Source: Pseudomonadota bacterium (GTDB taxonomy: Bacteria > Pseudomonadota > Gammaproteobacteria > Xanthomonadales > SZUA-38). From it: a stretch of DNA of 64,000 nucleotides. The translations under genes and the position numbers were made by a program. How positions within the stretch are numbered: the stretch's first letter is position 1; each line of letters starts with the position of its first letter. Under the pieces are notes generated by a model. It did no database searches and was not told where the DNA came from. It worked only from the letters and a program-made list of their open reading frames with translations. Positions 41,068-55,560 of this stretch are shown in pieces. The stretch covers positions 62,001 through 126,000 of the forward strand of contig JBCCCR010000006.1 of assembly GCA_039033415.1 (NCBI GenBank), written 5' to 3'.

Positions 41068-41595
41068 ATGATGCGCGCCGAAAGCTCCGTTGCCACCGCG
41101 CCGTGCCCCTGGTGTGGCGCCCAGGTGCCCGATATCGAAGGACCGATCCACCGCTATATGATCTCGTCCCCCGGCTGCTGGGCCACCTTTGGCACGGTGC
41201 TGGAACGTGAGTACGCCAACCCAACCTACGCGAGGCTGCATCGGCTGACCGTCGACGCCTACGCCGTCCAGCATCCCGGCGAGAGCGCCACCGAACCTTT
41301 GCCGGCGGCGATTCGATCCGTGTGCCTCCACCTGATCAGCCTGCATGCGGTCCTGGAACGGCGCGTGGAACCCGCTGTCGCTACCGCGCTGCTGTCCAAA
41401 GCCAGCCAGCACCGCGACTGGTTTCACTGGCTTGAACCGCCGGCTTCGGTCGGCGAGGTGACGGTCGCTGACGTGGCGCTGGCATCCTCCGCTGAGGCGC
41501 ACGAGGAAGCGGTTACCCGCTGGGCCGGGTCAGCCTGGACCGCCTGGCAAAATCACCACGCCACCGTTGCAACCTGGGTCAGCAAACTGCTTTAG
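41068..41595 (+). CDS. DUF5946-like protein
   Basis: The 175-residue soluble protein has an N-terminal C-P-W-C-G zinc-binding knuckle, followed by G-P-I-H-R-Y-M-I-S-S-P-G-C-W-A. The rest is helical, with histidines in C-L-H-L-I-S-L-H-A. The C-P-x-C-G...H-R-Y-M pattern resembles the DUF5946 family of unknown function. Two ATG codons in tandem begin the gene (41068, 41071). Its end overlaps the convergent membrane-protein gene by 4 bp. Confidence 0.75.
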   Translation: MMRAESSVATAPCPWCGAQVPDIEGPIHRYMISSPGCWATFGTVLEREYANPTYARLHRLTVDAYAVQHPGESATEPLPAAIRSVCLHLISLHAVLERRVEPAVATALLSKASQHRDWFHWLEPPASVGEVTVADVALASSAEAHEEAVTRWAGSAWTAWQNHHATVATWVSKLL

Positions 41596-43202
41596 GTGCG
41601 AAATTTCTGCTCCAGCCAGAGCAAGCCAGCGCTAAGAACGAACGTCAACCACAACACTCCGAGCGGTATCCAGGGCGCTCGGCCGGCGCCCGGATTCCCA
41701 GCTGCGCCCCGCAGCGCCACGGCCAGTTTGGTTTGTTCCTGCAGCAGCTGGGCTCGATACGCCGACCAGTTGTCATCCGAGAAAGCAAACTGGCGAAGCC
41801 CGTCGAGATCGTTCCAACCGGCGTTCTGTAGCGCTCCAGCCCGACAGCGGCTGGCGTCACAGCGAGCCACTCGCTCCCCGACACGCATCACGGGCAGCGG
41901 CGACGTTATCCACTCCTCGGCCGGCAGCGGCCGAGCGGCCGTGGACACCACCTCTCGCCAGAGCGACGCGTAGGCCGTTTCCTGACCTCGCGTGTTCAGC
42001 GAGTAGCTGTTTCGCAAAAGGGATACCACCACCGAGCCCGCGCCGAGTGATCGCGACAGCACCAGGGGCGATGCGTCGGTCGCGGAAACGATCGCCCGCC
42101 CACCAGCTCCGGTGACCGCCACCCGCTCCAGCTCTGCCGCGCCCCCCTCGAACGACAGGCGCGTTGCACCGCCGTCGGCAGCCTCGAGGGCAAACGTATC
42201 CAGCAGCGGACTGGTAGCTAGGCTCAGCAGCCGATCGTCACCCAGCACCAGCAGACCCATGCCGCCGACCACCGCTCGCGCCAGCCGGGCGCCCTCGACG
42301 GCCCCGAGCCCCGCAAGCCAGGCACTGTCAACCACCATCAGATCCAGCGCGTCGGGTTCGCGCTGCCAGGCGTCGAGCGCCGGCGATTCCCCGCTGGTTA
42401 GCGTTCTGCGGACGCGCGCGCCAACCTGGGCCTCGAGCCTCAGACCCGGCGTCGAGCGCGCCAGCCATCGCTGCAAATCTCGCGCCTCGAAGCTCAGATT
42501 CTCCAGCGCCAGCAGCACCCGAGGACCGGCGGGCTCTTCGATCAGCACCGGCAGAGGTTCACGCAGCACCGTGCCCCCGGTGCTGTCGCGAAGCGCCAGG
42601 TGCAGCACCATCGACCCGCTTGTCGGCGGCAACATCGACAGGCTGAAGCGCCCGTCTCTACCGATGGACGTCCGCTGGATCTCAACGTCTCCGGGCGCCA
42701 GCAGCACCGCTTCCCTCGCTTGCAGGAGCCGGTGCGCGCGGGCGGAGACCGTCAGCGGCTGACCGAGGATCAGACGCTGCGGCCAGTCGACATCCAGCAG
42801 ACCTGCCGGCAGCGTCGCCGGGTTGAAAGACAGGCTGGCGTCGGTTCCGCGCCACTGTTCCAGCGGCAGCCCGTGGCCTCGCACCTCGATAAGGTCCGCC
42901 CGGGGCACTTCCTTCAGCAGCGGATAAAGGTCGAGGCCGGAGAGCCTGACCACCCCGGTACCCTCAACCGCTGAACTTCCGGGCGTCAGAAGCACGACCG
43001 GCCGCGCGACGTTGTCGACGCGCTGGGGCTGGACCAGCAGGAGCCAAAGGCTTACTGCACCAAGCCACTGGACAACCAATACCAGCCAACGTCGAGCGCT
43101 ATTGAGGGGCTGCCGGATAAGCTGCCAGCTGAGCGCCGCCGCAGGCACCGCCAGCAGCAGCGCGCTGATAGTGGCCCAGGCCGGCGCCACCAGCAGACTC
43201 AT
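41592..43202 (-). CDS. Bat/GATase-like membrane protein, last gene of the TldD-MoxR operon
   Basis: The 536-residue protein has two N-terminal membrane helices (about 8-27 and 40-58) and one C-terminal helix (about 510-528). The large region between is extracytoplasmic and contains beta-sandwich-like sequence and a fold resembling a class I amidotransferase or VWA (L-D-L-M-V-V-D-S-A-W, G-G-M-G-L-L-V-L-G-D-D). No catalytic cysteine is visible there, so a binding role is more likely. The ATG at 43202 overlaps the DUF4175 stop as ATGA. The layout matches membrane proteins that accompany MoxR and BatA. Confidence 0.8.
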   Translation of the reverse strand: MSLLVAPAWATISALLLAVPAAALSWQLIRQPLNSARRWLVLVVQWLGAVSLWLLLVQPQRVDNVARPVVLLTPGSSAVEGTGVVRLSGLDLYPLLKEVPRADLIEVRGHGLPLEQWRGTDASLSFNPATLPAGLLDVDWPQRLILGQPLTVSARAHRLLQAREAVLLAPGDVEIQRTSIGRDGRFSLSMLPPTSGSMVLHLALRDSTGGTVLREPLPVLIEEPAGPRVLLALENLSFEARDLQRWLARSTPGLRLEAQVGARVRRTLTSGESPALDAWQREPDALDLMVVDSAWLAGLGAVEGARLARAVVGGMGLLVLGDDRLLSLATSPLLDTFALEAADGGATRLSFEGGAAELERVAVTGAGGRAIVSATDASPLVLSRSLGAGSVVVSLLRNSYSLNTRGQETAYASLWREVVSTAARPLPAEEWITSPLPVMRVGERVARCDASRCRAGALQNAGWNDLDGLRQFAFSDDNWSAYRAQLLQEQTKLAVALRGAAGNPGAGRAPWIPLGVLWLTFVLSAGLLWLEQKFRT

Positions 43203-45406
43203 CGGGTGTCGGAGCCGGCCGCCGCAGCGGCGTCTGGCTCGACGGCGAGCGGCGCAAAATACGACTCGGCGAAACGACCCTGCGGACCACTGCGGCGCAC
43301 ATTGGCCGGGGGATCTACCGAGCCGAGGGTCCGCCAAACGACAGCCTGGAGCTGTCGAAGACAGTCGGCACAAGGCCCAACCCCAAGCGTTGCTGCCGCG
43401 AGTCGCACCGTAGTTCGATCCGCGTCGTCGATCGCCTGCGTTTGCAGCCAGGCCAACTCATCCGGTGAGGGCTGGGCCGCGGCCAGAGCCGTGAGCAGCT
43501 CACTGAGGCGTAGCCGACTACGAGTCAACTTGTCATCCTCGCGCCATGCCGAGCGTGAATCGGCGCTTTCGTCCGGATCGCCGGTCAGTCGTTTACCCTC
43601 GTCCAGCGCTGGCGGTTCAAAGCCGGCGCGCCGCACGTAGATTCGGTTGGCCTGCTGGACCTGCTTCAGCAGCGTCAGCGCCTGGTACTGGTAGGGCAAT
43701 GCCTGAACCGGGCGTGACAAGTGGAGATTTAGCTCCGACTGCCACATCTCCGCCAGCGCCGCTTTGAGCGTTTCGCGCGTCTTTTCGTCGAACAGCGTGG
43801 CCTGCTCAGCTGAATCATGGGCGTGCACAAAATCCGCCATGAAGCCCGGCAGCCCGCCGATGGTTGTGCCCCCGTCGGCGGCACCTGTTGCCGTCGGATC
43901 ACCGCCATGATTGTGACCTGGTCCACCATGCGGGCCCTGGGCATGCGCCAGATGCTCAGCAAAACTCTCGCCGGCGTGGCTGTCATCGAGCTCGAGGTCA
44001 GCTGCTGACGGCAGGCCGATCTCGCTCTCGTACTCTTCGCCGAGATACTGTCCGTAGCGGATGCGCAGCGTTTTCTGATCGCGCGCCAGCGAGCGCGAGC
44101 GACCGATTCCCTCACCGACGCTGATCCGGCTGCGGTCGGCCACGAGCTTCTCGGTGTCGATGATGATCTGACGCTGGCTACGGAAATACTCGGGCAAGAT
44201 ATCAACCGCCAGCCCCTGGAGCGCCAGGGTGCGACGACCGCGTTGTGCCAGCCATCGCAGCATCAGCACGGGCGTCTGCGCCGAATTGGCTTCGGGTTCG
44301 CGGTTATCGGTGACCCGCGCGCGGAAGTAGAGCTCATCACCGGGTTCCATGCCCAGCGCCTCCAGGTCCCAGGCGCGCTGGAAGCGGACCGCCGCGCGCA
44401 TGCCCGTCGGGACCGGCACGGCCGCTTCGTCGTCAAAAGCGAGCTCAATATCGCGAAACTTCACGCCCTCCCCGTCACCCTTGGCGACCGTCGCCAGGAT
44501 CACCACGTCACCCAGGCCAAAGTCGTCACTGACTTCGACGACAAAAGTGGGTTGGTCGCCGACCGGATCGCGAACCTCTTGCGGGCTGAACTCCGGGATC
44601 TGGACACTAACGGAGGGCGGCTGATCCCGCTGAACCTGGATGAGTGCCGGCTCCGTGCTGAACTCCTGGCCGGCGGCTTGCCAGCTAACGGTATAGACGC
44701 GAGTGCTGCTGATCCGCTGGTCCACCGCAAAGCGACCGGGACCAAGGGCGGTGGCCCGGACGTCCGGCGCGTCGTCAAACGACAGCCAAGCCAGATCGAC
44801 AACGCCTGCAAACGCCAGCTCCCACCGTAGGCGCGAGCCCTCAACCACCGTCGCTGCCGCAGTGGACAGCCGTTGTGCTTCCTGTCCGGTATAGGCCGGC
44901 GGGCTGACCTCAAGTGCCAAACCTGTGAGGTGTGCACCGCCGAGTCCATCCCGCGGCGTGCTCAGCATGCCGAGCTTTGGCGCCAGCAGGACGGCCAGGG
45001 CCAGCGCCAGCAGCTTCAGCAGGCTGCGGCGCGCGCCTCGCGGCAGCTGGCCAGGAATCTGCTGCCGCTCCAGCGCCAGGACAACACGCCTGGCCTGCCG
45101 TGCCGCTAGCGGATTTGCCGTCGCCTGGTCTCCGACGAGCAGCTGCGCGCTGTCTTCCAGCACGGGCCAGCGGCGGTTGAGGTGGCGGGCCAGGGTCTTC
45201 CCCTGCAGCCGGTGCCACCAGTGCTCGGTCCAGGCCGCCAGGGATGCACCCAGCAACAGCAGGACGCTAAGTCGAGCCCAGCCAGGCCAGGCGCTGCTGA
45301 CGGCGGCCCCCGCCGCCAGCATGACCGCACCGCTCCCGAAAGCGATCAGCAGCAAGCGGCGCTGCATACGCTGCTGGAGTTTGAGAAGGGCCGGATCGAG
45401 CTTCAC
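43199..45406 (-). CDS. DUF4175-family membrane protein
   Basis: The 735-residue protein has two N-terminal membrane helices (about 17-55), a third near 130-148, then a long extracytoplasmic region. This holds a beta domain (P-P-A-Y-T-G-Q-E, V-S-D-D-F-G-L-G-D-V, R-V-T-D-N-R-E-P) and a helical part. A His/Gly-rich insert (43896-43987; nine His in about 30 residues) could bind metal. Two cysteines (C-A-D-C) lie near the end. The GTG at 45406 overlaps the BatA stop as GTGA. DUF4175 proteins often occur with MoxR, DUF58 and BatA. Confidence 0.85.
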   Translation of the reverse strand: MKLDPALLKLQQRMQRRLLLIAFGSGAVMLAAGAAVSSAWPGWARLSVLLLLGASLAAWTEHWWHRLQGKTLARHLNRRWPVLEDSAQLLVGDQATANPLAARQARRVVLALERQQIPGQLPRGARRSLLKLLALALAVLLAPKLGMLSTPRDGLGGAHLTGLALEVSPPAYTGQEAQRLSTAAATVVEGSRLRWELAFAGVVDLAWLSFDDAPDVRATALGPGRFAVDQRISSTRVYTVSWQAAGQEFSTEPALIQVQRDQPPSVSVQIPEFSPQEVRDPVGDQPTFVVEVSDDFGLGDVVILATVAKGDGEGVKFRDIELAFDDEAAVPVPTGMRAAVRFQRAWDLEALGMEPGDELYFRARVTDNREPEANSAQTPVLMLRWLAQRGRRTLALQGLAVDILPEYFRSQRQIIIDTEKLVADRSRISVGEGIGRSRSLARDQKTLRIRYGQYLGEEYESEIGLPSAADLELDDSHAGESFAEHLAHAQGPHGGPGHNHGGDPTATGAADGGTTIGGLPGFMADFVHAHDSAEQATLFDEKTRETLKAALAEMWQSELNLHLSRPVQALPYQYQALTLLKQVQQANRIYVRRAGFEPPALDEGKRLTGDPDESADSRSAWREDDKLTRSRLRLSELLTALAAAQPSPDELAWLQTQAIDDADRTTVRLAAATLGVGPCADCLRQLQAVVWRTLGSVDPPANVRRSGPQGRFAESYFAPLAVEPDAAAAAGSDTR

Positions 45407-46620
45407 GTCACCGCAGCCGGGGTGTTCTGAGTCGTCGCTTCGCCGCCGCCCTTCGGCGTCGCGCTGATCGATGTCGGTGAGGCCCGCAGCGCCAGCGCGC
45501 GTTCTAGCAGCCAGCTCACCAGCACCAACGCTGCCAGCCAAGAGCTGGGTGCGGGATTCTCAGCCAGCTCAAGCGGCTGCGGGAGCTGGCGCGCGAGGAC
45601 CAGCCACTCGTTGAGCAGATCGACAAAAGCCGCGCTGCTGACCAGGGCGTTGGTGTCGGGATGGAACCGGCCGGCAAAGGTGAGCCCCGGCACCTGACCC
45701 GCGTTGCTGAGCACCAGCAGCGGCTCGCCGCCATCATCGCGCAGCACCGGCTCACCCGCCGGGAGGTTAGCGGCGCGCTGCACCGTAAAACGCTGCTCAC
45801 CCACCGTCAGCTCCGACCGGTCGCCAGTGTCACCGGCGTCAGTCAGAAAGAAGCGATGCGCCACGTCCACCTCGCTCGGGTCAACGCCGAGCAACACCAG
45901 CGCGTCTACCACCACCGAGTCAGGTCCGCTGTCAGCGGCGTTCGTCAGCTCCCGCCAGCGAACCAGGTCAGCGCTCGCCAGCGCGGTGAGCGCAGCGCGG
46001 ACGTAACGGGCATCTTCCGAACGTTCGGAGCCCACCAGCAGCCCCACCTCAAGCGGCGGGAGTGCGCCGTCAGCGACGGTGTGCAGCGTGACGCCGGGCG
46101 GCAACGGCTCAGCAAGCCAGCTGCGATCCAGAGAATCGGCCACCGTCACAACCTGGGTTCGCTCAGGCCAGGTGTCCGCCAGCGAACGGAGCATCTGATC
46201 GACCGGGCCTTCGTAGACCGCGGGCTGGTCAAGGTCGGGGAAGCCCGTCGCGAGCTGGCGCGGCGCCTCGGCGCCGGCGGCCGCCAGCTCACGGGCTTTG
46301 GCGCGGGCGGCTTCCGGATATCGCTGGAGAGCCAGCGGCGAGACCAACACCGGACCCGCGGTGGCGGCCGGCACCGCCGGGCGCCAGCTGGGGCCCGCCA
46401 GCCATAGGACCAGCAGCGTGAGCAGCAGCCAGCGCAGCGCTAGCAGCCAGGGTTGCCTGAGCGAGATGCTCCGCACCCGTCGGGCTCGGCTGGGTGCCGT
46501 GAAACGCAGCGCCGGAAAGGTCATCGGCTGGCCGCTCGACGCATTGAGCAGGTGAATCACCAGCGGCACCACCAGGGCCGTCAGCCCCCAAAGCCAGCCA
46601 GGGTTTTGCCAGCTGATCAT
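45403..46620 (-). CDS. BatA-like membrane protein
   Basis: The 405-residue protein begins with the BatA signature M-I-S-W-Q-N-P-G-W-L-W-G-L. Two N-terminal helices follow (about 8-26 and 58-78), separated by the conserved basic loop F-P-A-L-R-F. A C-terminal helix is at about 365-383. Between them is a long soluble region without a recognisable VWA metal site. The start overlaps the DUF58 stop as ATGA, and its own stop overlaps DUF4175. It probably takes part in a membrane complex driven by the MoxR ATPase. Confidence 0.88.
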   Translation of the reverse strand: MISWQNPGWLWGLTALVVPLVIHLLNASSGQPMTFPALRFTAPSRARRVRSISLRQPWLLALRWLLLTLLVLWLAGPSWRPAVPAATAGPVLVSPLALQRYPEAARAKARELAAAGAEAPRQLATGFPDLDQPAVYEGPVDQMLRSLADTWPERTQVVTVADSLDRSWLAEPLPPGVTLHTVADGALPPLEVGLLVGSERSEDARYVRAALTALASADLVRWRELTNAADSGPDSVVVDALVLLGVDPSEVDVAHRFFLTDAGDTGDRSELTVGEQRFTVQRAANLPAGEPVLRDDGGEPLLVLSNAGQVPGLTFAGRFHPDTNALVSSAAFVDLLNEWLVLARQLPQPLELAENPAPSSWLAALVLVSWLLERALALRASPTSISATPKGGGEATTQNTPAAVT

Positions 46621-47546
46621 GGCTGATCCGTCAGGTAACGCCGGAGTCGACCGTCCAGCGGTTCATCGACGTTGAATCGCTCAAAGTTGACGCCCCGACC
46701 CAGCAGCGTGCGCCGCAGCTCGTCGAAATAAGACTGCCGCGACGCTCGATACGCCGCGCGTGTTTGCGCTGGATCGGTGAATCGCTCAACGCCGGACTCC
46801 GGATCTCGCAGGCGGACAACCCCCCGGTAGGGAAGCGTCCGCTCCGCCTCGGTCTCCAGGCACACCGCCCGCACGTCGCGCCCGCCGTTCGCCAGCCGGC
46901 CGAGCAGGTCGCTGAGCTCGCCGTGATGCTGGTAAAAATCGGACAGCACAATTATCAGCGCACCTTCCGAGGCGTCGCTGAAGCCCTGCGGCAGCCGGAG
47001 CTCAGTGGGGTTACCGTCGATCGACGACACGTCGCCCAAGCTCCCAGCGCAGCGTAGATCGCGCATCGCGCCCAGCACCCGATACCACTGCAGTCGACCA
47101 GCGCTGGCCGGCACGCGAAGACGACAGTCGGACGCCAGCGTGATCAGGCCAAGCTCGTCCCCCTGCTGCTGAGCGAGGTAGCCCAGTGCGGCGGCCAGTC
47201 GACAGGCGTAAGCAAACTTATTCAGGGCGCCGCCAGGTGAAGCAAAGTCCATGCTGGCGGAGGTGTCCAGCAGGAGCCAGAGACGCTGGTCGGTCTCCAG
47301 CTCCGACTCGCGTACGCTCAAACGTTCGGATCGGGCATACAGCCGCCAGTCAACGCTCCGGCTGGAGTCGCCCGGCTGCCAGGCGCGGTATTGGGCAAAC
47401 TCAAAGCCCGGTCCGTGACGCTGCCCCAGGTGACGGCCGAACAGATAGCCGGTTGCCAGCATACGCCCCGCCAGCTCCAGGTCGTCGATGGCCGCGAGCG
47501 TGGCGGGATTGATGACCTCCTCACGACGGGCGGCTGCGCTGCTCAT
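46617..47546 (-). CDS. DUF58-family protein (MoxR partner)
   Basis: The 309-residue protein has the DUF58 core: F-A-Q-Y-R-A-W-Q-P-G-D-S-S-R-S-V-D-W-R-L-Y-A-R. A VWA-like segment with L-L-L-D-T-S-A-S-M-D-F (a D-x-S-x-S site) and I-I-V-L-S-D-F follows. DUF58 proteins are standard partners of MoxR ATPases. The ATG at 47546 lies 19 bp after the MoxR stop; the longer frame to 47723 lies in moxR. It overlaps the BatA start by 4 bases. Confidence 0.92.
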   Translation of the reverse strand: MSSAAARREEVINPATLAAIDDLELAGRMLATGYLFGRHLGQRHGPGFEFAQYRAWQPGDSSRSVDWRLYARSERLSVRESELETDQRLWLLLDTSASMDFASPGGALNKFAYACRLAAALGYLAQQQGDELGLITLASDCRLRVPASAGRLQWYRVLGAMRDLRCAGSLGDVSSIDGNPTELRLPQGFSDASEGALIIVLSDFYQHHGELSDLLGRLANGGRDVRAVCLETEAERTLPYRGVVRLRDPESGVERFTDPAQTRAAYRASRQSYFDELRRTLLGRGVNFERFNVDEPLDGRLRRYLTDQP

Positions 47547-47565
47547 GGGAAGAGCCGGGGCGGCT

Positions 47566-48576
47566 TCAGTCCAGCGGGCTGGCCGGCCGGGGCTCACCTC
47601 GAACCACGGCGTCAACCAGATCGTCGGCAGTAACGCCATCAGCCTGCGCATGGAAGTTCGGCAGCAGCCGGTGGCGTAGTACCGGGCCCGCGTTGGCCCG
47701 CAGATCCGCTTCGGTGACCGCAAAGCGACCGTCCAGGAGCGCGGTGGCTTTGGCCGTCAGCACCAGCGCCTGCCCCGCCCGCGGGCCAGCGCCCCAGCGT
47801 AGATACTGATCCACCTCGGCGATCTTGCTCTGGCCAGGGCGCGTCGCGCGCACCAGCCTGGCTGCATAGTCGACCAGCGTCTCGCTGATCACCACGTCGC
47901 GGGCCAGCGACTGTAGTGTCAGGACCTGCTCGGCATTGAGCAGCGCCTGAGGTTTGCCTTCCCGATTGCCGGTGGTGGCATTGAGAATGGCCAGCTCTTC
48001 TTCGTGGCTCGGATAGGCCACGTTCAGCAGGAGCAGGAACCGGTCCAGCTGCGCCTCCGGTAGCGGGTAGGTCCCGGCCTGCTCCAGCGGGTTTTGGGTT
48101 GCCAATACAAAAAACGGTGCGGGCAGCAGGCGGGTTTCTCCAGCGTAGCTCACGGAACGCTCGGACATCGCCTCGAGCAATGCCGCCTGCGTCTTGGGGG
48201 GCGTACGGTTGATTTCGTCCGCCAGCAACACCTGGGTGAAAACCGGTCCTGGCTGGTACTCAAAGCTCGCGCTGCCGTCCTCGCCGCGGCGCAAAATCTC
48301 CGTGCCGATGAGGTCGGCTGGCATCAGATCGGGCGTAAACTGAATCCGGGTAAAGCTCAGATCCAGACAGCGCGCCAGCGTCTGAACCATCAGCGTCTTG
48401 GCGAGTCCAGGAACCCCTTCCAGCAGGCAGTGGCCACCTGCCAGGAGCGCAACCTGCAGCTGCCGAACCACCTCCTGCTGACCCACGATAACTTTCGCCA
48501 TCTCGTGGCCGACACCGGCCAGCGAATTAAGCAGGTCATCAACCTGATCGTGTTGGGGGCTGTGGGTCGTTTTCAT
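47566..48576 (-). CDS. MoxR-family AAA+ ATPase
   Basis: The 336-residue protein has Walker [11 protein letters not shown], Walker B L-L-A-D-E-I-N-R, sensor 1 A-T-Q-N-P-L-E and the lid R-W-G-A-G-P-R-A. MoxR ATPases act as chaperones in the maturation of protein complexes, usually with VWA partners. The start at 48576 overlaps the DUF4159 stop as ATGA. The DUF58 gene follows, giving the classical MoxR-DUF58-BatA order. Confidence 0.95.
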
Positions 48577-49268
48577 GAGGAAATGGCGTAGACGACGATG
48601 TTGACCCCGAAGCGGGTATTGTCGCGGGCCATAAAGCGCTTGTTGCGCAAATCGTAGTCCCACTCACAACCGTAATCCTTGTTGCTGTAAAGCACGCCAA
48701 CGCGGCCGTCGATGATGATGGCCTTGAGGTAGTCGTGCACCAGGTCATCACCCCAGCCGTTTAGCTCGAGCGAGGTCGTCGGCGGTCCGTCGAACTGAAA
48801 AAAGCAGGTGTAGATATCGTGGTCGTTGGGGATCTTGACGAGCGCATCGTCACCAAAAATGTCCGCCATCTGACGCTCGAAGCTGACGGCAAACAGGCCG
48901 TCGATATCGTGGTTACAGTCGTCGGCAAAAACAAAGCCGCCGCCGCGAACGTAGGTTTCAAAGTTTCGCTTTTCTTCGGGCGTAAACTGCACGAGTCGGT
49001 GGCCGGCCATGTAGCAGAACGGCGCGCTGAGCATCGACGGGTCGGCCAGCGGAATCACATACTCGTTGGGGTCAACGCGAAGGTTCGTGTACTCGATCAG
49101 GCTATTCAGAAGGTTTGACGGCATCCGCTCGTCCACATCCCAATTGCCCGATTCGTACATCAGCCGGGTGAATCGAAAGTCGTAGGCTCGCTCAGCGAGA
49201 GCGGGAACGGCGGTTGCTGCCGCCATTCCCGATAGCACCTGACAAAACTGCCGGCGCCTAGTATCCAC
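48573..49268 (-). CDS. DUF4159-family protein with Tat-like leader
   Basis: The 231-residue protein starts [14 protein letters not shown], a twin-arginine-like motif followed by a hydrophobic segment and A-L-A. The rest is a DUF4159 domain ([31 protein letters not shown]). DUF4159 is often found with MoxR/BatA genes; its fold resembles class I amidotransferases. The GTG start at 49268 is the second codon position after the MITE end. The MITE terminus supplies AGGA about 6 bases upstream, perhaps acting as the ribosome-binding site. Confidence 0.85.
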
Positions 49269-49271
49269 TTA

Positions 49272-49535
49272 GTGTCCTGTCCCGCTAAGTTGTTGCATTT
49301 CAGAGCCCCCTTGGGGCCAAGAACAAGGCGCATCGCGCCGCCAATGGCCGTAGCCCTTGGCAAGCGATGCAACGCGGTTATTGGCGCCAAGGGGGCTCCC
49401 TTTGGGCGCGCACCACAAGGCCTGGGGCGGCGTTGCGAACCTTGGCCAGGGAACCACCCTGGCCGGCGGCTCACGCCTTGCCCCAGGGCCTTGTGGACAC
49501 GCGCTGAAACGCAACGAATTAGCGGGACAGGACAC
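49272..49535. mobile_element. 264-bp MITE-like element between tldE and the DUF4159 gene
   Basis: The ends are inverted repeats: 49272-49305 and 49502-49535 pair over about 34 bp with a few mismatches (GTGTCCTGTCCCGCTAA perfect at both ends). A TA duplication (49270-49271 and 49536-49537) flanks the element, as for Tc1/mariner/IS630-type insertions. It has no transposase gene. The inside holds two strong stem-loops: 49303-49320 with 49381-49398 (17 of 18 match) and 49413-49428 with 49480-49496. I cannot name the family. It contains no coding sequence that I accept. Confidence 0.85.
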
Positions 49536-50851
49536 TAAACGGCGTCAGACAACGAGGTGAACGTGAAGTCGCGCACCACCATCGGCGGCACCATGTTGCC
49601 GTTGATCCGTACCGGCTTGCCGAGCTTCTCGATGTTGTTGAGCATGATCACCGGGCTTTCGTTGAAGCGCAGGTTTTTGACCGGATACTGGATTTCGCCG
49701 TTTTCGACAAAAAAAGTTCCGTCGCGGGTCAGGCCCGTGTAGAGCTGCGTTTGTGGATCCACCGAGCGAATGTACCAGGTCCGCGTAACCAAAATTCCGC
49801 GGCGCACGCCCTTGATCAGATCAGCCGTGCTCTCGCTGCCGCCGACCATAATCCAACCGTTGGGATTGGCGATCGCCTCGTATTCCTTTTGCTCAGCCCA
49901 GTAGCGCGAGCACGGCAGCTGCTGCACCACCCCATCTTTGATCCAGGTGCGTTTGGTATGCGCCTGACCGTCACCCGACCAGGGTGAATACGGGTTGTCG
50001 GCGTTTTGCGGATCTGAGTAAACCGTCACACGCTCATCGAATAGCTTCTCGCCGATTTTGGTTTCTCCCCCTTCCTTGGACAGGAAACTGCGGCCTTCGT
50101 CAGCGAGGCGGCGGCTCATGGAGCCCGCCATGTTGTTGATCAGCCTGACGCTGGCGGCGGGCTCGAGGATCACGGTGTACTTGCCGGGCTCGATCGCCTT
50201 GGCTTCGCGGGAGCGCACGGCCTTATCCATCGCCACCTTGGACGCGTCAGCCGTGTTCAGCAGGCGTACGTCGTTGAAGTCACGGGACGCCCAGCCTGAG
50301 CCGGTACCGTCAGCGGTACGGATGGTGGTGGAGAAATCGATACCGGTCGACGGATAAAAGGCAAACAGCCCTTTGCTGTTAGCCATCGCCGAAAAGCTGG
50401 CGTAGTCGTTGATGAAACCGGCCGCGGTCAGCTCGGCTTTGCGGCTCGGGATGATCGAGTCCGCGGCGGCCTGCGCGCGATATTCCGCCGTGATCTTGGC
50501 CGTTGCGTCGACAAAGCCATTGCCTTCGAGGTAGTCCTGCTGGCCGAGCCGCGGCATGTACTCCTCGCTCTCCGGGGACAAACGCGCTAGTTCCTCGGAG
50601 GTCCGCACGGCCCGCTCGAGCGACTTGTCGTCAAACTGGTTGATGGTGGCGACCCCCGATTTCTTGCCGAACGCCGACTGCACCACCATCGTCACGTCTT
50701 CAGTGACGCCCGAGGTGGTGACCGTGTTGAGGGCGTAGCGCACGTTGCCCGTGACGGCCCCCGAGAGATTCACTTCGCACTCCTCAGCCTTAGAGAAGCC
50801 CAGAACCTTGTCCATCAGGCCTTTGGCCTGCTTGCTGTCCATAATGGTCAT
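49535..50851 (-). CDS. TldE/PmbA-family protein
   Basis: The 438-residue protein lacks the H-E-x-x-x-H metal motif, as TldE proteins do (E-P-A-A-S-V-R-L-I-N-N-M-A-G in its place). It keeps the family V-R-R-G-I-L-V-T-R-T-W-Y-I-R and G-E-I-Q-Y-P-V-K-N-L-R-F-N-E-S segments. TldE forms a heterodimer with TldD, whose metalloprotease activity acts on peptides such as microcins. No signal peptide is visible, unlike its TldD neighbours. It begins 15 bp after the second TldD gene. The stop TAG is created partly by the TA of the MITE insertion; without the MITE it would be TAA. Confidence 0.9.
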   Translation of the reverse strand: MTIMDSKQAKGLMDKVLGFSKAEECEVNLSGAVTGNVRYALNTVTTSGVTEDVTMVVQSAFGKKSGVATINQFDDKSLERAVRTSEELARLSPESEEYMPRLGQQDYLEGNGFVDATAKITAEYRAQAAADSIIPSRKAELTAAGFINDYASFSAMANSKGLFAFYPSTGIDFSTTIRTADGTGSGWASRDFNDVRLLNTADASKVAMDKAVRSREAKAIEPGKYTVILEPAASVRLINNMAGSMSRRLADEGRSFLSKEGGETKIGEKLFDERVTVYSDPQNADNPYSPWSGDGQAHTKRTWIKDGVVQQLPCSRYWAEQKEYEAIANPNGWIMVGGSESTADLIKGVRRGILVTRTWYIRSVDPQTQLYTGLTRDGTFFVENGEIQYPVKNLRFNESPVIMLNNIEKLGKPVRINGNMVPPMVVRDFTFTSLSDAV

Positions 50852-50866
50852 GATGCGTCTCCCGAT

Positions 50867-52492
50867 TTAGATCTTGCGCGATGAGTTGATGACGTTGATG
50901 TCGTTAAAGCGGGTGGTGGCACTGCCGTGCGACACCGCGCTCACCTGGCTGGGTTCCCCTTTGCCGTCGAAGAACGAACCGCCAAGCCGGTAGTCGCGTT
51001 CATCGCAGATCGCCACGCACGAGTTCCAGAACTCGTTGGTCGTGGACTGGTAGGTCACATCTTCGAGCATGCCCGCAATTTCACCGTCTTTGATTTCGTA
51101 GAACAGCTGACCGCCGAACTGAAAGTTGTAGCGCTGCTGGTCGATTGAGAACGACCCCGAGCCGACAATATAAATGCCTTTTTCGACGTCTTTGATCATC
51201 TCTTCGGGCGTCAACGGCTCTTTGCCCGGCTCCAGCGACACGTTGGGCATGCGCTGGAACTGCACCGTTGACCAGTTATCCGCATAGCAGCAGCCGTGCG
51301 ACTGATTCTGGTCGATCATGTGCACCTGATCGCGGATCGCCTGGTAGTTGACCAGCGTACCGTCTCGCACCAGGTCCCATTCGCCGGTCGGCACGCCTTC
51401 GTCGTCGTAGGCGACGTGGCCGAGCGACCCCACCTGGGTCTTGTCTGCGACCAGATTCACGACTTCAGAGCCATACTTGAAGTCGCCGGCACGCCACTTG
51501 TCGATGGTGGCAAAGCTGGTGCCAGCGTAGTTGGCCTCGTAGCCGAGCACGCGGTCGAGCTCCAGCGGATGGCCCACCGATTCATGAATGGTGAGCCACA
51601 TGTGGCTGGGTTCCAGCACGAGATCGTACTTGCCGGGTTCAACCGACTTGGCCTTGTGCTTCTCACGCGCCTGCTCGGCAGCGAGCCGCGCGTCTTCGAC
51701 CATGTCGTAGGACTTGTCGTACAGAGTGGTCACGCTCTTGATCTTGTCTTCCTCGCGGCCTTCGAGGTATTCCCAGCCGCGTCCTACCGGGGAGCTCAGC
51801 CCCTGCCGGGACTTGAACTTCCCGGTGGACTTATCGATCGCGGTAGCAAAGAAGGGCGCCCAAAGCCGATGAACGTCCTGGTCGATGTAAGACCCGTCGG
51901 TCGAGGCGAAGTACTTTTGCTCGTTGACCAGAAAAAGAATCGAGTTGATGAAATCGGCGCCCGCGCCCAAAGCCGCGGCGTTCACGGACAGCAGCATGTC
52001 CACCTTTTCGGCAATCGGCACTTCCATGGCGTTCTTTTTGATCGGCGTTTTCCAGCTCACCTCGCCGACACCCTTGACCGGCGCCAGCACCACCGGCTTG
52101 TCCTGAAATTTCGAGTTGGCCTTGGCCGTTGCCACCGCCTTGGCGGCCGCCCGGTTGACGCTATCGGGGTCTAGCCCGGACGTGGCGGCGAAGCCCCAGG
52201 TGCCGTTGCTGATCACCCGAACGCCGACGCCCAGCGACTCGGTGTTGACGATGTTCTGGACCTTGTTTTCACGGGTCACAACAAACTGGTTGAGGTATCG
52301 ACCGACGCGCACGTCAGCGTAGCTCGCTCCCGCGGTCGTCGCCGTGTTGAGCGCCGCCTCCGCGAGCGATTTTTTCACCTCGAGTTCCAGCGGCAGCACC
52401 AGCTGTTCCGCCGCAATCACGTTGCCGGTGATCGGCAGCGCCAGGGTGCCCATACCGACACCGGTGACCTTCAAAAAATCTCGTCTTTCCAT
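50867..52492 (-). CDS. TldD-family metalloprotease, Tat-exported (second paralogue)
   Basis: The 541-residue protein starts M-E-R-R-D-F-L-K-V, a textbook Tat motif, followed by a short hydrophobic stretch and A-A-E. The catalytic H-E-S-V-G-H-P-L-E-L-D-R motif (H-E-x-x-x-H) lies near residue 315. The C-terminal part (G-I-Y-I-V-G-S-G-S-F-S-I-D-Q-Q-R-Y) is strongly similar to its upstream paralogue, so the two look like a tandem duplication. The gap to the upstream paralogue is 137 bp and the gap to TldE is 15 bp. The predicted location is the periplasm. Confidence 0.93.
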   Translation of the reverse strand: MERRDFLKVTGVGMGTLALPITGNVIAAEQLVLPLELEVKKSLAEAALNTATTAGASYADVRVGRYLNQFVVTRENKVQNIVNTESLGVGVRVISNGTWGFAATSGLDPDSVNRAAAKAVATAKANSKFQDKPVVLAPVKGVGEVSWKTPIKKNAMEVPIAEKVDMLLSVNAAALGAGADFINSILFLVNEQKYFASTDGSYIDQDVHRLWAPFFATAIDKSTGKFKSRQGLSSPVGRGWEYLEGREEDKIKSVTTLYDKSYDMVEDARLAAEQAREKHKAKSVEPGKYDLVLEPSHMWLTIHESVGHPLELDRVLGYEANYAGTSFATIDKWRAGDFKYGSEVVNLVADKTQVGSLGHVAYDDEGVPTGEWDLVRDGTLVNYQAIRDQVHMIDQNQSHGCCYADNWSTVQFQRMPNVSLEPGKEPLTPEEMIKDVEKGIYIVGSGSFSIDQQRYNFQFGGQLFYEIKDGEIAGMLEDVTYQSTTNEFWNSCVAICDERDYRLGGSFFDGKGEPSQVSAVSHGSATTRFNDINVINSSRKI

Positions 52493-52629
52493 TGGGAATG
52501 CCCCTCAAATCTGTTTGTGCGGCCCGCTAGTGTGGTGCGGAACGCCTATGGATCGGGATATTGCCGGTCGCGTCCGGCGGCGGTCAGTGTCGAAAGTCCC
52601 GACACCGAGTGCCGGGCCCACCCGTATCG

Positions 52630-54249
52630 TTATATTTTTCGGGCGGAATTAATCACCTTGATATCGTTAAAGCGGGTGGTTGAGCAGCCGTGGGAAACCG
52701 CGCTCACCTGGCTTGGCTCCCCCTTTCCGTCAAAGAACGTACCGCCGAGGCGGTAGTCGCTAGCGTCGCAGCTCGCGACACAAGCATTCCAAAACTCAGT
52801 GCTCGTTGACTGATAGGTAACATCTTCCAGCATGCCCGTGATTTTCCCGTCAACAATCTCGTAAAAGAGCTGGCCGCCAAACTGCATGTTATAGCGCTGC
52901 TGATCGATCGAGTACGAACCGCGACCGACAATATAGATGCCTTTCTCGACCTCTTTGATCATGTCGTCCGGCGTCAACGGCGCTTTGCCCGGTTCCAGTG
53001 ACACGTTGGGCATCCGTTGAAACTGCACGCTCGACCAGCTGTCCGCGTAGCTACAGCCGTGCGACTGGTCCTGATCGAGCATGTGAACCTGATCCCGGGT
53101 CGCCTGATAGTTCACCAGAATGCCGTCCCGGACCAGATCCCACTCGCGAGCTGCGACACCCTCATCATCAAACGCAACCCGACCCAGCGAATTCACCTGC
53201 TGCTTGTCGGCGACGAGATTGACCTGGTCCGAGCCATAGCGAAAATCACCCTGGCGCCATTTGTCGAGGGTGGCAAAGCTGGTGCCCGCGTAGTTGGCTT
53301 CGTAGCCAAGCACCCGGTCGAGCTCCAGCGGATGTCCCACCGACTCGTGAATGGTCAGCATCAGGTGCGTGGGATCGAGTACCAGGTCATAGCTACCCGG
53401 CTCCACGGACTTGGCCGTGAGCTTCTCCTTGGCCTGCCGGCCCGCCTGCCGGGCATCCTCGATCAGGTCGTAGGCACAGCGGTACCGTGGCGTGACGCCG
53501 TCGATGCGCTCGGCCGGATCGGGCTCCAGGTACTCAAAGCCCATGCCCATCGGAACGCCGATGGCCTGGCGCGATCGAAAGCGGCCGGTGCTCTTTTCCA
53601 CCGCCGTGGCCGTAAACGGCGCCCAGATGCGATGGATGTCCTGGTCAGCATAGGTGCCGTCAGTAGACGCAAAATACTTCTGCTCGTTCACCTGGAACAG
53701 GCTGGAGCTGATGAAGCTGGCGCCGGCACCCAGCGCCGCCGCGTTGGCCTCCAGCAGGAGTTCCGCCTTGTCTTTGATGGGAATCTCAAAGGCGTTCCGC
53801 TTGATCGGTGTCCCCCAGGTCACCTCGCCCGCCCCCTTGACCGGCGCTAGCTGCACCGGCCGCGACTGTACCTTCGAGTTCGCCACCGCCAGCGCTACCG
53901 CCTGACGGGCAGCAGCAGCCACCGAGTCGGCGTCCAGCTTGGAGGTTGCCGCAAAACCCCAGGTGCCTTTGGCGATGACCCGGACGCCGATACCGCTCGA
54001 CTCAGTGTTGACGATGTTTTGAATCCGCGACTCGCGGGTAAAAAGGTACTGGTTCAGGTATCGGCCGATTCGCGCATCTGCGTAGCTGGCCCCAGCGGCC
54101 TTGGCCGACTCCAGCGCCACGTCGGCCAGCGTTCGCTTGGTCTCAAGGGCCAGCGGCAGGCTGGCCGCTTCCTCCGCCGTGGTGCTCAAGGGCACGCTCA
54201 TGCTGGTTAGACCCAGGCCGGTGACTTTCAGGAAAGATCTTCGTTGCAT
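52630..54249 (-). CDS. TldD-family metalloprotease, Tat-exported (first paralogue)
   Basis: The 539-residue protein starts M-Q-R-R-S-F-L-K-V, a perfect Tat motif, with a hydrophobic region up to about residue 25. The metal site H-E-S-V-G-H-P-L-E-L-D-R is intact. Nearly every block is shared with the downstream paralogue, including the final S-R/A-R-K-I ending. I chose the ATG at 54249 because it places the Tat motif at the N-terminus; an in-frame extension runs to 54279. It is the first gene of the operon, and the 129 bp to the divergent nhaA start should hold both promoters. Confidence 0.92.
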   Translation of the reverse strand: MQRRSFLKVTGLGLTSMSVPLSTTAEEAASLPLALETKRTLADVALESAKAAGASYADARIGRYLNQYLFTRESRIQNIVNTESSGIGVRVIAKGTWGFAATSKLDADSVAAAARQAVALAVANSKVQSRPVQLAPVKGAGEVTWGTPIKRNAFEIPIKDKAELLLEANAAALGAGASFISSSLFQVNEQKYFASTDGTYADQDIHRIWAPFTATAVEKSTGRFRSRQAIGVPMGMGFEYLEPDPAERIDGVTPRYRCAYDLIEDARQAGRQAKEKLTAKSVEPGSYDLVLDPTHLMLTIHESVGHPLELDRVLGYEANYAGTSFATLDKWRQGDFRYGSDQVNLVADKQQVNSLGRVAFDDEGVAAREWDLVRDGILVNYQATRDQVHMLDQDQSHGCSYADSWSSVQFQRMPNVSLEPGKAPLTPDDMIKEVEKGIYIVGRGSYSIDQQRYNMQFGGQLFYEIVDGKITGMLEDVTYQSTSTEFWNACVASCDASDYRLGGTFFDGKGEPSQVSAVSHGCSTTRFNDIKVINSARKI

Positions 54250-54378
54250 CGGCGGGCTCCAGCGTGACAGGCCGCGCATGCTAGCAAATTTCCTGGCAAG
54301 TCGTTCCAGGGGCTAACAAATCGGGACAATTTTTTGGACAATACGCGCCTTAACTCACGCCTATCGAGCACAAGCCCC

Positions 54379-55560
54379 ATGCCGTTAAACCTGATGCGCG
54401 AATTCATCAAGCTGGAATCGGCCAGCGGGATCATCCTGATCGGTTCAGCCCTCGCCGCGCTAGTGGTGGCAAACAGCCCACTGTCGAGCACCTATGACCT
54501 GCTGCTCAGCACCAAACTGGCGATCAGCATCGGCACCTTTGCCATCGACAAACCGCTGCTACTGTGGGTCAACGACGGCCTGATGGCCATGTTCTTTCTG
54601 CTTGTCGGCCTGGAGGTCAAGCGCGAAATCCTCGTGGGACAGCTTTCCAGTCCGGCGCAGGTGGCGCTGCCGCTGGCGGGCGCTGTCGGGGGGCTGGCGG
54701 TGCCAGCAGGGATCTACGCCTGGATCAACTGGGACAATGCTGACGCACTGGCCGGCTGGGCTATCCCAGCGGCAACCGACATCGCTTTTGCCCTGGGGAT
54801 TCTCGCGCTGCTAGGCAATCGGGTGCCCAACGCCCTCAAGCTGATGCTGCTCGCGATCGCCATCTTTGACGATCTCGGAGCCATCATCATCATCGCGATG
54901 TTCTACTCCAACAACATCTCGGTTATGGCACTCGGGCTGGCGGCGATCGGACTGGTCATCCTCGCCGTAATGAACTTCCGCAACGTCTCCGGCATCACTT
55001 CTTACCTGTTCGTCGGGCTGCTGGTCTGGGTCTGCGTCCTCAAATCGGGCGTCCACGCCACGTTGGCCGGCGTCGCGGTGGCAATGTTTATTCCCATGAA
55101 GCTCCCGGATACCGACCATTCACCGCTCGAGACGCTGGAGCACGACCTGCACCCGCTGATCGCCTACGCCGTGGTGCCCATCTTCGCGTTTTTTAATGCG
55201 GGGGTGTCACTGGGCGGCCTTTCGCTGGATGCCCTCGGGCACCCCATCACGCTGGGCATTATGCTCGGCCTGATTATCGGCAAACAGCTTGGCGTGATGT
55301 CGCTGATCGGTCTCCTGGTCGCCACCGGGATCGCCAAGCTCCCCGAAGGACTGCGGTGGCCGCAGATCTACGGCATGTCGATTCTGTGCGGCGTCGGCTT
55401 TACCATGAGCCTGTTTATTGCCTCGCTGGCGTTTCAGGAAACCGGTGCCGAAAACTTTGTCTATGACCGGCTGGGGATCCTGATGGGATCCGGCCTGGCC
55501 GCGGTCCTTGGCTATGTCGTGCTGCGCATCGTCAGCAAGCCCGGTAGCGAACCGGGTTGA
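54379..55560 (+). CDS. nhaA: Na+/H+ antiporter NhaA
   Basis: Sodium-proton antiporter of the inner membrane. The 393-residue protein has the family start (R-E-F-I-K-L-E-S-A-S-G-I-I-L-I) and about twelve helices. The transport residues lie in P-A-A-T-D-I-A-F-A-L-G and I-F-D-D-L-G-A-I-I-I-I-A, corresponding to E. coli Asp133, Asp163 and Asp164. The ATG at 54379 matches NhaA; the frame is open from a TTG at 54334. The next gene starts within its stop (TTGA). Confidence 0.96.
   Translation: MPLNLMREFIKLESASGIILIGSALAALVVANSPLSSTYDLLLSTKLAISIGTFAIDKPLLLWVNDGLMAMFFLLVGLEVKREILVGQLSSPAQVALPLAGAVGGLAVPAGIYAWINWDNADALAGWAIPAATDIAFALGILALLGNRVPNALKLMLLAIAIFDDLGAIIIIAMFYSNNISVMALGLAAIGLVILAVMNFRNVSGITSYLFVGLLVWVCVLKSGVHATLAGVAVAMFIPMKLPDTDHSPLETLEHDLHPLIAYAVVPIFAFFNAGVSLGGLSLDALGHPITLGIMLGLIIGKQLGVMSLIGLLVATGIAKLPEGLRWPQIYGMSILCGVGFTMSLFIASLAFQETGAENFVYDRLGILMGSGLAAVLGYVVLRIVSKPGSEPG

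Follow-up and report, generated by a model that had tools for sequence, protein, structure and literature searches.

Conserved gene block joining TldE and Tat-type TldD proteins to a MoxR membrane operon suggests an uncharacterised system that may trim or clear cell-envelope proteins

Nine open reading frames, every one on the minus strand, occupy positions 41592-54249 of the window (the whole 64,000-nucleotide stretch of DNA analysed here): TldD, TldD, TldE, DUF4159, MoxR, DUF58, a BatA-type gene and two further genes, gene 8 and gene 9. The three TldD/PmbA proteins, DUF4159, MoxR (AAA_3), DUF58 and BatA score above the Pfam gathering cut-offs. The genes for the two TldD paralogues, TldD1 (52630..54249) and TldD2 (50867..52492), are separated by 137 bp, and those for TldD2 and TldE (49535..50851) by 15 bp. 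A gap of 266 bp precedes the gene for the DUF4159 protein (48573..49268), which is followed by those for a MoxR-type AAA+ ATPase (47566..48576), a DUF58 protein (46617..47546), a BatA-type two-anchor membrane protein (45403..46620), a divergent DUF4175-like membrane protein (gene 8, 43199..45406), and a membrane-anchored protein with a GATase1-like domain at about residues 226-428 (gene 9, 41592..43202). Four-base overlaps are found at the DUF4159/MoxR, DUF58/BatA, BatA/gene 8, and gene 8/gene 9 junctions, and 19 bp separate MoxR from DUF58; the nine minus-strand genes and the coupling of the six MoxR-side genes described in the initial annotation are thus borne out. A promoter and terminator scan at the operon gave results no better than shuffles. 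Between TldE and DUF4159 sits a 266-bp repeat with inverted ends (49271..49536, no strand assigned), which has many copies elsewhere in the same genome and is missing in the sister species, where an empty site is present (locus L123). The repeat does not belong to the system and interrupts the window's copy of the operon.

Both TldD proteins match the PmbA_TldD families of Pfam (first, second, and third domains in TldD1), TldD2 resembles E. coli TldD (5nj5), and both begin with an R-R-x-F leader, MQRRSFLK in TldD1 and MERRDFLK in TldD2. Among the fetched loci, RRxF[LIVMF] lies near the N-terminus in 59/59 Tat-type TldD copies; these are the 61 TldD rows less two from leaderless loci, and the counts do not include two incomplete TldD matches that G193 has on further contigs. 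A very loose AxA-like pattern for a signal peptidase site fits 59 of the 61 rows, and the genome encodes TatC (E 2e-67). Judging from these leaders, TldD would be exported by the Tat pathway. The DUF4159 protein (Pfam PF13709, E 5.5e-51), which is related to the solved structure 4i66 (E 1.4e-11), has the leader MDTRRRQF from a GTG start, so that all three R-R-x-F leaders previously claimed for this locus are present. Its RRRQF-C sequence fails the strict twin-arginine pattern, which is seen in the DUF4159 leaders of 13 of 35 loci; many have a single Arg, one lacks an evident leader, and one is truncated.

The HExxxH motif is present in all 56 TldD rows of the motif alignment and, in its extended form HExxxHxxExD, in 61/61 TldD copies. 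In E. coli TldD the third zinc ligand is Cys454, and Asp has been named as a possible substitute, for example in Gemmatimonas (PMC5810440). In TldD1 and TldD2, as in each of the other Tat-type copies (59/59), Asp occupies this position, whereas Cys is kept in all 22 leaderless relatives examined. These include L027, one of 21 leaderless frames, in which RRRFA occurs upstream of the apparent start and the Cys is nonetheless kept. Since the Asp-type TldD clade forms one lineage, the 59 Asp residues may reflect a single event. The presence of Tat leaders in every one of these copies together with the Cys454-to-Asp swap goes beyond the initial annotation. NCBIfam equivalog models score the window proteins far below their cut-offs (109-116 bits against 635 for TldD; 52 against 438 for TldE with PmbA), and by this sequence measure they are a distant subfamily rather than the equivalogs. 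The same genome also keeps a canonical TldD/PmbA pair and, on contig C38, carries a second TldD pair with Sec-like leaders (judged by eye) and Cys at the aligned place. As this pair is exported-looking and retains Cys, export does not require Asp.

TldE, which matches the TldD/PmbA families of Pfam, carries HExxxH in none of 40 sequences and a twin-arginine leader in none of 46; the 46 rows include two from leaderless loci, and the TldE of G233 consists of two fragments with its N-terminus cut by a contig end. Its gene adjoins TldD wherever no contig end intervenes, and a related-locus search with TldE as the query returned two loci. Being leaderless, TldE is therefore either co-exported or left behind. 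The E. coli proteins form a heterodimer in which both subunits are required and which can be entered by unfolded peptides only (PMC5810440), and co-export of TldE with TldD is presumably the case here. The proposal that the protease half is periplasmic is supported for TldD by its leaders and a TatC in the genome, and depends for TldE on such co-export.

The predicted membrane character of the MoxR/Bat half is supported by hydropathy, which assigns membrane segments to BatA, gene 8, and gene 9. The ATPase matches AAA_3 and AAA_lid_2 and has the Walker A motif GVPGLAKT; the DUF58 protein (Pfam DUF58, E 2.1e-36) has zero transmembrane segments by hydropathy. The window's BatA has three TM-like segments and no VWA match; across the alignment the Pfam BatA anchor is found in 16/16 rows and VWA in none, among the families listed. 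The DUF4175 label given earlier to gene 8 is weakly supported: two of the 16 alignment rows match PF13779, at best with E 2.3e-9, and the window member has no Pfam match. One weak TPR match was seen among the 16 rows. Gene 8 is beta-rich in its middle part and carries a His/Asp-rich loop, the loop region holding 5-11 His in all 16 rows. Hydropathy gives it two membrane segments versus three long N-terminal helices in the model (pTM 0.45), and the side on which its large part lies is unsure. A sequence search for solved relatives of gene 8 found none, and Foldseek with the same model returned mostly generic immunoglobulin-fold matches. Gene 9, left unnamed by the initial annotation, can now be described as a membrane-anchored protein with a GATase1-like fold in its AlphaFold2 model (pTM 0.60; VIA-align Z 15.3 to the GATase1-like structure 3rht). 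By profile it matches the GATase1_like/VWA protein encoded in the C28 operon; a sequence search for its solved relatives gave chance-level matches.

Conserved co-occurrence of the gene set, proposed earlier as a check, was observed. DUF4159, MoxR, and DUF58 are present in all 41 genomes found with a Tat-type TldD, and all eight families in 38 of them, 37 on one contig stretch and one (G273) spread across two contigs whose ends interrupt it. Among the three incomplete genomes, G219 and G226 stop at contig edges and G611 has no detected BatA. Such recurrence of one gene set in 41 genomes puts the arrangement far beyond what chance would produce. In a sample of 151 genomes of the order, the 31 TldD carriers all fall within the 33 DUF4159 carriers, so that DUF4159 occurs in 31/31 TldD carriers versus 2/120 others (Fisher p 3e-30, a value that ignores kinship). 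Another class has the operon as well: in one of its orders it is carried by 7 of 147 genomes, a count that includes the centre genome. The TldDs of these genomes branch within gammaproteobacterial groups at two or more points, which fits transfer of the operon as one unit. Two relatives, G508 and G846, have a leaderless TldD with Cys, and the other six families are unmatched within their 20-kb stretches. L104 is laid out differently, with DUF4159 at the end of a 909-aa frame. A fused BatA-DUF4159 protein was considered for this locus and dropped, as the frame has the Pfam DUF4159 match but none to BatA; a stop also lies within the DUF58 stretch of this locus.

Compared with E. coli TldD/TldE (PmbA), the window shares HExxxHxxExD, an adjoining TldE without HExxxH, and the same three Pfam domains; it differs in the Tat leader, Asp for Cys454, sub-equivalog scores, and linkage to MoxR, often with two TldD copies. 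With the Bat operon (Bacteroides aerotolerance) it shares MoxR, DUF58, and the N-terminal anchor of BatA (PMC11834572), whereas its BatA and gene 8 have no Pfam VWA or TPR match and it has TldD/E, DUF4159, and a GATase-like protein in addition. The RL3499-RL3502 operon of Rhizobium leguminosarum (Vanderlinde 2011) is MoxR-led like that of the window, which encodes MoxR, DUF58, and a GATase1-like membrane protein; RL3499 has been assigned to the MRP subfamily (PMC3893208). BatA and DUF4159 are separate genes in the window. The Rhizobium operon reportedly also contains DUF58, a joined BatA-DUF4159 protein, and a GATase, and no TldD/TldE. MoxR-DUF58-BatA operons occur widely, and few of their clients are known; the attachment of a defined enzyme of known mechanism to such an operon offers a concrete candidate for a client or partner.

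Starting from the conserved unit, its leaders, the changed metal site, the TldE partner, and the membrane segments, all read from sequence, we tentatively favour, with less than even confidence, a two-part envelope proteolysis system in which exported TldD/E is served by a MoxR-driven membrane machine. TldD would be folded and metal-loaded in the cytoplasm and then exported by Tat, the leaderless TldE probably being carried along as part of a folded heterodimer. In the periplasm, TldD/E would be a closed-chamber metallopeptidase that cleaves unfolded chains and whose metal is bound by a thermolysin-like His-His-Asp site. BatA, gene 8, and gene 9 would form an assembly in the inner membrane, powered from the cytosol by the MoxR-DUF58 ATPase pair, and this assembly, together with periplasmic DUF4159, may pull out, unfold, or present envelope proteins or peptides to TldD/E. 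The gene block thereby suggests an uncharacterised system trimming or clearing cell-envelope proteins. A second DUF4159-MoxR-DUF58 operon in the same genome lacks TldD, and TldD/TldE pairs are also found without MoxR; because each half occurs without the other, that the MoxR half acts on TldD/E, its physical coupling to the peptidase half, and the direction of this action are matters that we infer. TldD/E, described so far as cytoplasmic, would be placed in the envelope with a signature of Tat leader and Cys-to-Asp change, and would be the only TldD/E known to work in the periplasm. As the periplasm lacks ATP, an ATP-coupled periplasmic peptidase system would, if true, be of general interest. 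The boldest form, an ATP-powered membrane-spanning machine feeding an exported "pencil-sharpener" peptidase, with TldE hitchhiking on the Tat leader of TldD and the Cys-to-Asp change suiting an oxidising compartment, we consider unlikely.

Possible, if somewhat unlikely, is that the MoxR half serves as a maturation factor of TldD/E and DUF4159 through metal loading or exchange or complex assembly, in the way that MoxR-VWA pairs serve other metalloenzymes, with TldD/E as the client and substrates not delivered by MoxR. MoxR proteins are described as chaperone-like for dedicated complexes such as NO reductase and CO dehydrogenase (PMC3893208). The altered metal site of every Tat-type TldD and the invariably present His/Asp-rich loop of gene 8 would suit this role, although His-rich loops are of low complexity and may not bind metal, and the membrane side of this loop is unsettled. 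Moreover, leaderless relatives of the same subfamily manage without MoxR neighbours, and Tat substrates are usually metal-loaded before export.

The separate existence of each half would also agree with one regulon of two machines, that is, envelope-stress genes co-expressed without mutual action, and in Rhizobium the MoxR protein RL3499 plays an important part in membrane integrity and cell morphology (PMC3893208). We regard this explanation as quite unlikely, since co-occurrence in 41/41 genomes and the apparent block transfer exceed what is usual for simple co-regulation.

Maturation of a secreted modified peptide or cofactor, the known role of E. coli TldD/E being that for microcin B17 (PMC5810440), appears improbable. 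The nearby conserved small peptide gene that the initial annotation proposed to look for was not found. Outside the operon genes, 3598 ORFs from 39 loci (39 genomes) were compared, a comparison that misses ORFs below 22 aa and very divergent or distant ones; the remaining 7 of 46 loci were the near-duplicate of the sister species (L123), two leaderless loci, and four contig fragments. The largest flanking families reach at most 9/39 genomes, all of one genus. Inside the operon, 258 ORFs have 22 aa or more, and no family to which any of them belongs occurs there in more than two genomes; the three families with an inner member reach five genomes (one inner), three genomes (one inner), and, as an antisense pair, two genomes of one genus. 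Furthermore, there is no modification enzyme among the Pfam matches of the nine genes. With no small peptide gene conserved nearby, the peptide-maturation idea is weakened, and a precursor encoded at the locus is unsupported.

The lack of a twin-arginine motif in TldE and a review title naming TldD/TldE N-deacetylases could point to a TldD that is not exported, to periplasmic TldD alone with TldE in the cytoplasm, or to a small-molecule deacylase instead of a peptidase, but the invariant RRxF[LIVMF] leaders, the need for both subunits in E. coli, and the adjoining position of TldE make this very improbable.

Judged by product names, the S. maltophilia operon NIPOLPBK_01784-01792 is probably the operon of the window: its nine locus tags are given with eight products, namely two TldD, one putative protease, a MoxR-like ATPase, a membrane protein, and three hypothetical proteins (PMC7688217). 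The portion of that report dealing with the operon contains no Tat or metal-site analysis. Its RNA-seq data, which give no hint of the substrate, have some of these genes, called not yet characterised, at lower expression in biofilm in all isolates (PMC7688217).

The nine genes at 41592-54249 all lie on the minus strand and encode two TldD paralogues (TldD1, 52630-54249; TldD2, 50867-52492), TldE (49535-50851), a DUF4159 protein (48573-49268), MoxR (47566-48576), a DUF58 protein (46617-47546), BatA (45403-46620) and the products of genes 8 (43199-45406) and 9 (41592-43202). Pfam backs the identity of seven of the nine, and the junctions described in the initial annotation, with a 4-base overlap at four and a 19-bp gap at one, were confirmed. 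A divergent Na+/H+ antiporter gene (Pfam Na_H_antiport_1; 54334-55560) is located immediately upstream of TldD1.

Gene 8 is predicted from sequence to encode a divergent DUF4175-like membrane protein: DUF4175 was matched by 2 of 16 alignment rows, and the Pfam search gave no DUF4175 match for the protein from the window. The modelled structure starts with helices, continues with a beta-rich middle and ends in a helical part, and all 16 rows share a His/Asp-rich region with 5-11 His. Hydropathy indicates two transmembrane segments, whereas the model has three long N-terminal helices, so this region may lie on either side of the membrane. In the gene 9 protein, two transmembrane-like segments lie at the N-terminus and one at the C-terminus, and its model contains a GATase1-like domain at residues 226-428 that resembles 2gk3 (VIA-align Z 16.6) and 3rht (Z 15.3, rmsd 3.1, 183 residues aligned). 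The gene 9 profile also matches (probability 95) a pair alignment of a 747-aa protein from a second MoxR operon of the same genome, which itself matches Pfam GATase1_like (E 1.6e-6).

The co-occurrence of this gene set in other genomes, proposed as a check in the initial annotation, was borne out. Among 151 genomes of the order sample, DUF4159 was present in 33 and the TldD type of the window (E up to 1e-60) in 31, all of them among the 33; genomes G187 and G201 have DUF4159 without TldD. In the class sample, 19 of 185 genomes matched TldD at E up to 1e-20, with identity above 60% only in the own genome and G165. In the phylum sample, 10 of 299 matched at E up to 1e-70, nine with both leader and operon and one (G508) with neither. 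Matches were also found in 7 of 147 genomes from an order of another class, in 1 of 100 from the order of G611 (G611 itself), and in 2 of 121 from the order of G508, both leaderless. Stretches around the matches were fetched for every genome found at these cut-offs, yielding 41 genomes with leader-type TldD; two partial TldD matches on other contigs of G193 lie outside these stretches. All eight gene families were found in 38 of the 41, in the one-strand order TldD/TldE - DUF4159 - MoxR - DUF58 - BatA - DUF4175-like - GATase-like, the operon being broken over two contigs in one of them (G273). The stretches from G219 and G226 stop at contig edges, and BatA was undetected in G611. The TldD/TldE copies vary in order (D-D-E, D-E, D-E-D, D-E-D-E, D-E-E), and G233 has an additional TldD on another contig. 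According to the tree, TldD was duplicated separately in several lineages, and the genomes from the other class nest within gammaproteobacterial groups at more than one point, a pattern consistent with the block having been transferred horizontally. In some loci, 0.6-2.3 kb of extra sequence lies between operon genes (L098, 5181-7512; L106, 9115-10117 and 12299-15164); ORFs from it were part of the ORF comparison described below.

The predicted Tat-type leaders of TldD, as initially annotated, recur throughout the fetched loci: the motif RRxF[LIVMF] is found near the N-terminus in 59 of 59 Tat-type copies, and TatC is encoded in the 6.4-Mb genome containing the window. None of 46 TldE sequences has a twin-arginine motif (the G233 TldE N-terminus is cut). 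The similar leader claimed for DUF4159, a protein with a solved relative (4i66), proved less uniform, the strict twin-arginine pattern being present in 13 of 35 loci (one of the 35 is cut off). The DUF4159 protein of the window, with RRRQF followed by Cys, fails this pattern; many others have a single Arg and a hydrophobic stretch, and no obvious leader was seen in G611.

According to published work on E. coli, the TldD metal ligands are His262, His267 and Cys454, TldD/E is a heterodimer that admits unfolded chains only, and Asp is mentioned at the Cys position in Gemmatimonas (PMC5810440). In the loci studied here, Asp (in the motif DGK[GA]xP) replaces this Cys in 59 of 59 Tat-type copies, and all 61 TldD rows, among them the two leaderless ones, retain HExxxHxxExD. 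Cys is kept in 22 of 22 leaderless relatives, namely 17 class-sample matches, G508, G846, an M. ulcerans plasmid, a Nonomuraea record and the canonical TldD of the own genome; among the 17, L027 carries RRRFA ahead of the apparent start. The replacement fits relocation to an oxidising compartment, in which a free Cys that binds metal is disadvantageous. Two points call for caution: the Asp clade is monophyletic, so the ligand change may be a single event, and a TldD pair on contig C38 of the own genome, with Sec-like leaders by eye, retains Cys. This exported-looking TldD/PmbA pair (L128, 8639-12183) has Pfam PmbA_TldD_3rd in both members and HExxxH with the usual Cys in one; its neighbours resemble ABC-transporter genes by eye.

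The TldD/TldE and MoxR-side halves also occur apart. A second operon on contig C28 of the own genome (L126, 1722-9891) encodes DUF4159, the 747-aa GATase1-like/VWA protein, MoxR and DUF58, with TldD absent among the frames listed. Leaderless, Cys-type TldD/TldE pairs of the same subfamily are present in G508, G846 and the plasmid record, and no MoxR neighbours were found in the stretches fetched around them. Most simply, a MoxR-DUF4159 operon would have taken in a cytosolic TldD/TldE pair, which acquired a Tat leader, the metal ligand changing on that same branch. A G201 locus (L104, 4498-11111) contains MoxR, DUF58 fragments with a stop inside the DUF58 stretch, DUF4159 ending a 909-aa frame, and a protein that is weakly GATase1-like; by eye its surroundings look alphaproteobacterial, though G201 is filed in the order of the window.

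Between TldE and DUF4159 lies a 266-bp repeat with inverted ends (TGTCCTGTCCCGCTAA; 49271-49536), which has 57 matches in the genome, partial and self included, several at contig ends. The TldE stop codon takes its final two bases from this insert, and DUF4159 now begins with GTG. In the closest relative found, G208, assigned to the same genus (locus L123), the repeat is absent and the DUF4159 ATG directly follows the TldE stop; thus, either the operon was split between its halves after divergence from this sister species, or a clean loss of the insert occurred in the sister.

A conserved operon encoding a TldD of Tat type with a changed metal site is well supported, and is common to the two leading explanations of its function. 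We tentatively prefer a periplasmic TldD/E peptidase that would be served by a MoxR-driven inner-membrane assembly, inferring a coupling of TldD/E to the MoxR half. The main alternative, in which the MoxR half would mature the exported TldD/E or load it with metal, appears somewhat less likely. A linked modified-peptide precursor is disfavoured, since the conserved small peptide gene suggested initially did not emerge when 3598 ORFs of 22 aa or more, all lying outside the operon genes, were compared at 39 loci from 39 genomes with flanks of a few kilobases: the broadest families reach 9 genomes, all of genus g3, and among 258 ORFs inside the operon no family is located there in more than two genomes.

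In the parts of the literature on TldD/TldE, PmbA and DUF4159 covered here, no description of an exported TldD linked to MoxR was found. Published work describes MoxR proteins as chaperone-like assembly factors and assigns the Rhizobium MoxR protein RL3499 an important role in membrane integrity and morphology (PMC3893208). The operon is very probably the same, judged by product descriptions, as NIPOLPBK_01784-01792 of S. maltophilia, which an RNA-seq study describes as not yet characterised, naming eight products for nine tags (two TldD, three hypothetical proteins, a protease, a MoxR-like ATPase and a membrane protein); across all isolates, some of these genes had lower levels in biofilm (PMC7688217).
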